From positions 1 to 64,000 of the forward strand of contig CACJKA010000002.1 of the NCBI GenBank assembly GCA_902593945.1: DNA of 64,000 nt, written 5' to 3'. Of this stretch, positions 40,804 to 42,407 are shown piece after piece (within the stretch, counting starts at the first letter, position 1; each line of letters starts with the position of its first letter). The translations under genes were made by a program, and so were the position numbers. This DNA is from an uncultured Candidatus Poseidoniales archaeon. GTDB taxonomy: Archaea; Thermoplasmatota; Poseidoniia; Poseidoniales; Thalassarchaeaceae. The notes beneath the pieces are model-generated. The model was not told where the DNA came from, made no database searches, and was given only the letters and a program-made list of their open reading frames with translations.

Positions 40804-40896
40804 GATTAACAAACTTGCCCGAGATAAATTCCAATGGGTCTCCCGACGTGCTTAAATGAGGTCGGTCAGTCGCCGAGGCACTTCAGAGGGAAAGTC

Positions 40897-41160
40897 ATGG
40901 CTGTAGAGAACTCAAACATTGGTGTAGTCGAGGAGAAAGTCCAAGACTGGCAAGATGAGATTGAGAGTCGTGTTCGTGGCCTTCAAACTGGTTCTTATGC
41001 AAGAATTCTGAAGATGGCTAGGAAACCTTCCAAAGAAGAATTTCGTCAAACAGTGATTGTTTGTGGGATTGGAATGTTTGTGCTTGGAGGAATTGGATTT
41101 GTTATGCTATATTTGATGGATAATCTACTTCCTTCGTTCTTTGATTGGTTGACTAAGTAA
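40897..41160 (+). CDS. secE: Protein translocase SecE/Sec61-gamma
   Basis: RILKMARKPSKEEFRQTVIVCGIGMFVLGGIGFVMLYL; in-frame ATG 40897. Confidence 0.9.
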   Translation: MAVENSNIGVVEEKVQDWQDEIESRVRGLQTGSYARILKMARKPSKEEFRQTVIVCGIGMFVLGGIGFVMLYLMDNLLPSFFDWLTK

Positions 41161-41176
41161 ATAGAGAGTGATTTTT

Positions 41177-42043
41177 ATGTCTGACGCATTTACAGTATTT
41201 ATCCGCCATGAAGAAAAAGTTCTACTTATGCAAAGAGCAGATGAAGTTTCTGATTTACCAGGAGCTTGGGATGGAGTCTATGGCTATGGTGATCATAACG
41301 ACTTAGACGCTGTAGTTTCAAGAATTGTAGAATCAACCGGAATCCCTGCTGACAAGTTACAACATGTAAGAACTGGAAAATCTAGAGGAATTGCGATGGG
41401 GAATTCACTACTAGAAGTTACACCTATTCTGTTTATTTCAGAAAGTAATGAGGTTACTCCTAAAACATTGTACAAAAACTCAGAATGGGTAGACCCAGGT
41501 ATGATCGGTAAGAAAGAATACAGCACTCCAAGTCTTAGAGATATGTATGGAGATGTTGCCTCTTTCTTGTACATTCTTAAAACTAGTATTGGACAAGAGC
41601 AAAATGTTGCAAAAGAGATTCAAGCAAGACTCTCTGGAAGCGGTTCACTAATGGACATCCAAGATGAAATATATGGTGTATTGAGTCCTAACTATATGAA
41701 AGGATACATCTTTGTTGAGGCTTCTGCATTCCACCATGTTGAGAAACTAATTGGTAGGGCTGGAGTTTCAACAACTCCTATCAAAAACTGTAGAAAGGTA
41801 TTGGATGGTGAATCTCCTCTTGAAGATGTCCTTCCATACTTGGAGCCAAAGGCGGCTACAACAGGGATCGAAGAAGGCTGTATTGTGGAGATCCACGGAG
41901 GAGCATTCAGAGGCCAATCAGCACGTGTTATTCGAGTTACTGAATCAAAGGAAGAAGTTACTGTTGAACTATTCGAAGCTGCAGTTCCTGTGGCATTAAC
42001 AGTTAGAGCCGATCAAGTAAGAGTTACACAACGTGTAGAATAA
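41177..42043 (+). CDS. spt5: Transcription factor Spt5/NusG with N-terminal NUDIX-like domain
   Basis: C-terminal LYILKTSIGQEQNVAKEI...YMKGYIFVEA...GCIVEIHGGAFRGQSARVIRVTESKEEVTVELFEAAVPV (NGN-KOW); N-terminal ~128 aa NUDIX fold pattern. Confidence 0.9.
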   Translation: MSDAFTVFIRHEEKVLLMQRADEVSDLPGAWDGVYGYGDHNDLDAVVSRIVESTGIPADKLQHVRTGKSRGIAMGNSLLEVTPILFISESNEVTPKTLYKNSEWVDPGMIGKKEYSTPSLRDMYGDVASFLYILKTSIGQEQNVAKEIQARLSGSGSLMDIQDEIYGVLSPNYMKGYIFVEASAFHHVEKLIGRAGVSTTPIKNCRKVLDGESPLEDVLPYLEPKAATTGIEEGCIVEIHGGAFRGQSARVIRVTESKEEVTVELFEAAVPVALTVRADQVRVTQRVE

Positions 42044-42128: not shown

Positions 42129-42407
42129 ATGTCAGCGCGAAATGAAACACCACACAAAGTTGTTCAAGCGTTAGGTAAAAAGAAGTGTAATGGTTCTTGG
42201 GAAGATGCTTCTGAAAATTTGACTATGGATCAAATTAAGAAGATTGCTACTGAACAAGAAGATCGCCTAACAGGTGCAAATCTGTATGCTAGATGCCGTG
42301 AAGTTATGGGGACTTGTGTTGCAATGAGAGTACATGTAGAAGGTTATGCACCTAAAGAAGCACTCGACAGAATGAGTAAGGGGGAATTCAGCGAACACTT
42401 TAGCTGA
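42129..42407 (+). CDS. rpl11: 50S ribosomal protein L11, C-terminal domain only
   Basis: TPHKVVQALG...NLTMDQIKKIATEQEDRL...REVMGTCVAMRVHVEG matches archaeal L11 CTD; strong SD ATAGGAGGTC upstream of ATG 42129; between spt5 and L1. Confidence 0.8.
   Translation: MSARNETPHKVVQALGKKKCNGSWEDASENLTMDQIKKIATEQEDRLTGANLYARCREVMGTCVAMRVHVEGYAPKEALDRMSKGEFSEHFS

Follow-up and report, generated by a model that had tools for sequence, protein, structure and literature searches.

The locus raises the question of why the transcription elongation factor Spt5 of an uncultured marine archaeon is nearly twice its usual length, where the additional N-terminal part came from, and what it could do on the elongation complex. 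The window, the whole stretch of 64,000 nucleotides that was analysed, lies on contig 2 of a 1.2-Mb genome, 65% complete, from Marine Group II, family Thalassarchaeaceae. The close relatives of this archaeon are Euryarchaeota UBA, Thalassarchaeum and Poseidoniales MAGs. An earlier note, made from the sequence alone, had read the gene as an Spt5 of ~289 instead of ~150 amino acids, with a degenerate Nudix domain fused in front of the NGN domain. The unusual length is real, since 288 residues are encoded, compared with 147–152 in solved archaeal Spt5 chains. The features of the gene and its neighbours are collected in Table 1.

Table 1. Nudix-Spt5 fusion gene and adjoining features, in positions of the window
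Feature	Position	Strand	Remarks
secE	40834..41160	+	Upstream neighbour, conserved spt5 context
Shine-Dalgarno-like GAGAGTGA	41164..41171	+	5 nt upstream of ATG
Nudix-Spt5 fusion gene	41177..42043	+	ATG at 41177; 288 aa + stop
Predicted pseudo-Nudix domain, residues 1–114	41177..41518	+	Pfam/NCBIfam, AlphaFold, Foldseek, profile-profile match to catalytic-looking relatives
Degenerate Nudix box GYGDHNDLDAVVSRIVESTGI, residues 36–56	41282..41344	+	R49 and S53 replace Glu; E52 kept; short loop
Joint, residues 115–129 (approximate)	41519..41563	+	Predicted helix 120–127, invariant Y124-G125
NGN domain (RNA polymerase-binding), residues 130–226	41564..41854	+	
KOW domain, residues 229–286	41861..42034	+	
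rpl11 (uL11), C-terminal RNA-binding domain only	42129..42407	+	Downstream neighbour

The fusion gene is the genuine and sole Spt5 of its source archaeon. Residues 130–286 are an ordinary archaeal Spt5 by their TIGR00405, Pfam and PDB matches: the TIGR00405 model covers residues 132–286 (E 2e-33; 115 bits, cut-off 69.95), the NGN domain matches Pfam Spt5-NGN PF03439 above its 22.4-bit cut-off (E 2e-11), and the KOW domain matches PF00467 at 20.3 bits (E 5e-4), slightly below the cut-off of 22.3. This NGN-KOW part also matches the structure 3p8b in Foldseek (E 1e-15). The open reading frame starts 16 bases downstream of secE and is followed by rpl11, rpl1 and rpl10, giving the gene order secE-spt5-rpl11-rpl1-rpl10. 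Spt4 is encoded in the source genome (PF06093, E 3.9e-11) and in 78 of 79 Poseidoniales genomes; because this partner is retained, a role of the pseudo-Nudix domain as a substitute for Spt4 was ruled out. Within NGN, lineage-specific insertions are found near one place, namely VMNKGKGYGRSKEPDTFGT in the sister order (L111–L116) and a GRDPSARRG-type sequence in Poseidoniaceae (e.g., L084–L110), close to a residue that touches upstream DNA in Thermococcus.

The N-terminal domain has, according to structure prediction, a Nudix fold. By itself, the window protein scores weakly against Nudix models (TIGR02150, IPP_isom_1, E 2e-5; Pfam NUDIX, E 0.007), as expected for a degenerate member of the family, and 24 of 39 diverse homologues match Pfam NUDIX, with a best E of 2e-6. 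AlphaFold of the full-length protein (pTM 0.64) gives the strand and helix order of Nudix proteins with the Nudix helix at residues 43–54; the domain alone, run with an alignment of fused and free homologues, is modelled with a pLDDT of 93.8 and a pTM of 0.88. The top Foldseek matches in the PDB are Nudix hydrolases, including 3grn (TM 0.82/0.77), NudI, RppH and Ap4A hydrolase. Structure prediction, from which a refutation of the Nudix reading might have come, thus yielded a confident model of that very fold. Among other models, NtrR (NCBIfam) is matched by one member only, at E 0.21.

The replacement of the REx2EE core, which the earlier note had read as SRIVEST, is confirmed and extends across the order. 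The core aligns to S48-R49-I-V-E52-S53 in the window protein, and the full Nudix box, Gx5Ex7REUxEExGU, is absent from the fused sequences: RE has become xR in 78 of 80, EE has become E followed by S, C, A or V, and the loop has become shorter, with another two residues missing in Poseidoniaceae. The catalytic-base glutamate is an arginine (R49 in the window) in 78/80 and the last catalytic glutamate is Ser, Ala, Cys or Val; E39 is lost, as is W-E-H, a motif close to the C-terminal end of the domain. Three of the four acidic positions conserved in catalytic relatives are changed. The fused domain has acquired invariants of its own (R10, D32, R49, G71, Y99 and D106), while R20, W31, G36 and W104 are invariant in fused and catalytic-looking proteins alike. 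R49, in place of the catalytic glutamate, and D32 may form a salt bridge at the former metal site.

It could be argued that the domain is still an enzyme that relies on other catalytic residues. At position 52, Glu persists in 63/80 fused sequences and Asp stands in nine, and the best NCBIfam match is the isopentenyl-diphosphate isomerase-type Nudix model. However, the loss of the base glutamate, the last glutamate, E39 and W-E-H makes such activity extremely improbable, and an active type 1 isopentenyl-diphosphate isomerase was rejected outright, as the TIGR02150 score is 24.5 bits against a cut-off of 105.8 and the catalytic set is lost.

A further objection raised beforehand was that an internal start might yield NGN-KOW alone. 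The sequence signals are against it: of 80 genomes, 70 have a Shine-Dalgarno-like motif in front of the N-terminal start and none has one in front of the internal Met123, a contrast that is still strong although the motif list is broad and some matches will be due to chance. Met123 itself is present in only 71/80. The internal start was therefore rejected, and by these signals, translation of the Nudix-Spt5 protein begins at the upstream ATG. In ~80 aligned genomes the frame is uninterrupted, and dN/dS between relatives is mostly 0.01–0.12 for the Nudix part, compared with about 0.003–0.02 for NGN-KOW. The Nudix domain is under strong purifying selection; open frame and low dN/dS together place its preservation far beyond chance. 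It evolves faster than NGN-KOW and may therefore play an auxiliary part.

The fusion is a trait of the whole order Poseidoniales and has a single origin, two points that the earlier note had left unremarked. A whole-protein search recovered it in 97 of 98 relatives, covering both families of the order, and this spread over genomes from many projects rules out an assembly artefact or a fusion private to one strain. The fused protein is normally the only Spt5 of a genome. A second full-length fused copy is found in one genome with 4% contamination (G299), and second, partial Spt5 matches in three others (G304, G277 and G197); those of G304 and G277 are fragments or divergent copies on separate contigs, possibly contamination. 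Some of the partial matches in G133, G121, G139 and G200 are close to, or directly at, the end of a contig, and an odd insertion in G232 (L199) proved to be a run of N, that is, a scaffold gap and not biology.

The survey of the Nudix-NGN-KOW architecture that had been suggested was run within Thermoplasmatota and bore out the reading as a feature of the order: no Nudix domain was found on Spt5 in six sister-order genomes or in 34 other Thermoplasmatota Spt5 proteins that were read. When the Nudix domain was used as a profile against 286 genomes of the phylum, it was recovered as the fused copy in Poseidoniales and as separate genes elsewhere, with none of the listed non-Poseidoniales matches at an Spt5 locus. 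Viral copies of the domain were looked for and none was found. In the sister order, which belongs to the same class, Spt5 has a short acidic N-terminal tail (about -27 to -33 charges per 100 aa in L111–L116), which recalls the acidic N-terminus of eukaryotic Spt5. In the remaining members of the phylum, Spt5 is plain or bears another, beta-rich extension. The latter is seen in other Thermoplasmatota families (L009, L010, L029 and L117–L120), where some 130–150 apparently beta-rich residues without a Pfam match stand before NGN. Additions before NGN thus seem to have arisen more than once in Thermoplasmatota.

The free relatives of the domain in other Thermoplasmatota are stand-alone proteins of ~135–150 aa or C-terminal domains behind an AcnX swivel domain (PF01989). 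Profile-profile comparison by hhalign relates fused and free forms with a probability of 99.3% (E 2.4e-20) over residues 1–116. The stand-alone proteins are homologous to the fused domain and share R20, W31, G36 and W104 with it, but they look catalytic, having kept the E-x2-E-E and D-W-E-H motifs that the fused domain has lost: glutamate occupies all three catalytic positions in 20/20 free relatives and W-E-H is kept in 19–20 of 20. In a midpoint-rooted tree, all fused sequences fall together on the same side of a 100/100-supported branch; this tree holds only the fused and the free Thermoplasmatota sequences and leaves the closest relatives among all Nudix proteins undecided. Given this branch and the distribution of the catalytic set, a single fusion in the ancestor of Poseidoniales, with catalysis lost at or soon after fusion, is the simplest account. 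In early Poseidoniales, an in-frame fusion would have placed the gene of a stand-alone Thermoplasmatota Nudix enzyme at the 5´ end of spt5, and the catalytic residues would have decayed at that time or shortly afterwards. We are nearly certain of the identity and evolutionary history of the fusion as described.

A Nudix domain whose catalytic motif is apparently intact stands behind the AcnX swivel domain in L233, L238, L242, L246, L247, L250 and L259; by homology, the swivel domain is the small subunit of phosphomevalonate dehydratase. The AcnX-Nudix protein of L259 matches both PF01989 and PF00293, and in some Thermoplasmatota (L259, L260 and L262) only a few kb separate the genes for the AcnX large subunit and AcnX-Nudix from the spt4 cluster (rpo7-spt4), a proximity that is given no weight here. 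A link between AcnX and the Spt5 fusion was not drawn, as Poseidoniales keep AcnX and show no Nudix match outside Spt5.

The binding or regulatory role suggested in the earlier note is an inference, and what the domain does is a matter of graded likelihood. The NGN domain binds RNA polymerase and the KOW domain recruits factors (PMC3382729). In a Thermococcus complex, residues 12, 13 and 68 of the archaeal NGN contact the upstream non-template DNA (PMC11616081); by alignment these correspond to window residues near 137–138 and 206, and the Nudix domain is therefore attached within a few residues of that site. It is acidic, with a mean net charge per 100 aa of -8.6 in the fused form, compared with -1.9 in free relatives and +1.4 in NGN; the Nudix part of the window protein (-5.3) is less acidic than the family mean, and the ORFs of the window average -2.9.

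The reading that we prefer, for which the chances appear evenly balanced, is that the principal function of the domain would be that of a non-catalytic acidic docking module, possibly ligand-gated. As in other Spt5 proteins, NGN would hold the factor to the clamp of RNA polymerase, and the conserved joint, a helix ending in MYGDV, would fix the pseudo-Nudix domain beside it, near the upstream edge of the transcription bubble. There the acidic domain would offer a partner protein a non-catalytic docking surface, which a small ligand in the former substrate pocket might gate, and Spt5 would have a recruitment site in addition to KOW. The fixed position is argued from the conservation of the joint and its predicted helix; a rigid joint holding the two domains in one orientation would fit both, although the full-length pTM is too low to establish it. 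The explanation as a whole, from fusion to docking, we consider slightly better than an even proposition.

The acidity favours protein docking over general nucleic-acid binding. By analogy with NUDT21/CFIm25, the pseudo-Nudix domain might contact nascent RNA or upstream DNA, as its tether to the NGN strand that carries the DNA-contact residues 12–13 of Thermococcus would allow. The inactive Nudix protein NUDT21 recognizes UGUA in RNA (PMC12116747), and the fold matches include structures of RNA pyrophosphohydrolases. Nevertheless, the negative charge next to a slightly positive NGN, together with the absence of any match to the NUDT21/CFIm25-type model NUDIX_2 (PF13869) among 39 members scanned with Pfam at E <= 1, makes such binding distinctly unlikely. 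The charge could also be the function itself, in an acidic module that shields or chaperones basic partners, be they histone-like proteins or the basic surfaces of RNA polymerase, as a folded counterpart of the acidic N-terminal Spt5 tails seen in the sister order and in eukaryotes. The strongly acidic tails of the sister order and the greater acidity of fused over free domains agree with this idea; the invariant R10, W31-D32-G33, R49, G71, Y99, W104 and D106, however, exceed what charge alone would need, and we regard it as improbable.

The acidity of the domain is compatible with ligand binding and does not exclude it. The old pocket may have become a sensor in which a nucleotide or metabolite (for instance ADP-ribose/NAD, NTP or an alarmone) is bound but left intact, so that elongation or termination answers to metabolism, much as the NrtR repressor answers to ADP-ribose. 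The fold is kept, with the four invariants that fused and catalytic-looking proteins have in common, and there are precedents for Nudix domains that lack catalysis and are predicted to bind NAD metabolites, that of DBC1 being non-enzymatic (PMC5389931). On the other hand, the pocket is remodelled by the changes at W-E-H and at three of the four acidic positions and by the shortened loop; the sensor is thus a possible but rather unlikely reading. Similarly doubtful is the proposal that Spt5 is here a metabolite-responsive elongation factor, whose action on RNA polymerase would change when a nucleotide or an NAD-type ligand occupies the dead active site. If true, ligand-bound Spt5 would couple elongation or termination to the energy state of the cell in a dominant marine archaeal order.

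Separately from the Spt5 fusion, the neighbouring rpl11 encodes a uL11 of ~92 aa. The uL11 N-terminal domain (PF03946) is missing order-wide in Poseidoniales: nothing scored over the cut-off in the genomes of the order that were examined, and the domain is present in 18 sister-order genomes and in 14/14 controls. This truncation is surprising, since the N-terminal domain is normally part of the factor-binding centre of the ribosome.

Finally, the fusion can be set beside known systems. Archaeal Spt5 proteins such as those of Pyrococcus furiosus (3p8b), Methanocaldococcus jannaschii (4zn1) and Thermococcus kodakarensis (9bct) likewise consist of NGN and KOW, occur with Spt4 in the same genomes, stand in the order secE-spt5-rpl11-rpl1-rpl10 and are normally single-copy; the Poseidoniales protein differs in ~130 more N-terminal residues, the predicted Nudix fold plus joint, and in two Poseidoniales-specific insertions in NGN. 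The extensions of the other Thermoplasmatota families are also N-terminal to NGN but are unrelated in sequence and not Nudix. The presence of a folded former enzyme before NGN sets this whole order of globally abundant ocean archaea clearly apart from that plan; the domain offers a new surface on the elongation complex that can be tested, and it provides a case of enzyme-to-regulator conversion whose catalytic-looking relatives persist in the same phylum. Pseudo-Nudix domains in gene expression are already known, and no description of one on Spt5/NusG was found in the open-access literature searched. NUDT21/CFIm25 is likewise an inactive Nudix fold recruited to RNA metabolism, but it is eukaryotic, binds UGUA RNA and is not fused to a transcription factor. 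NrtR and DBC1 also use the Nudix fold for regulation instead of catalysis, with different partner domains. The NrtR repressor responds to ADP-ribose through its Nudix domain, which is joined to a winged helix in a DNA-binding repressor, whereas in Poseidoniales the Nudix domain is followed by NGN-KOW in an elongation factor.
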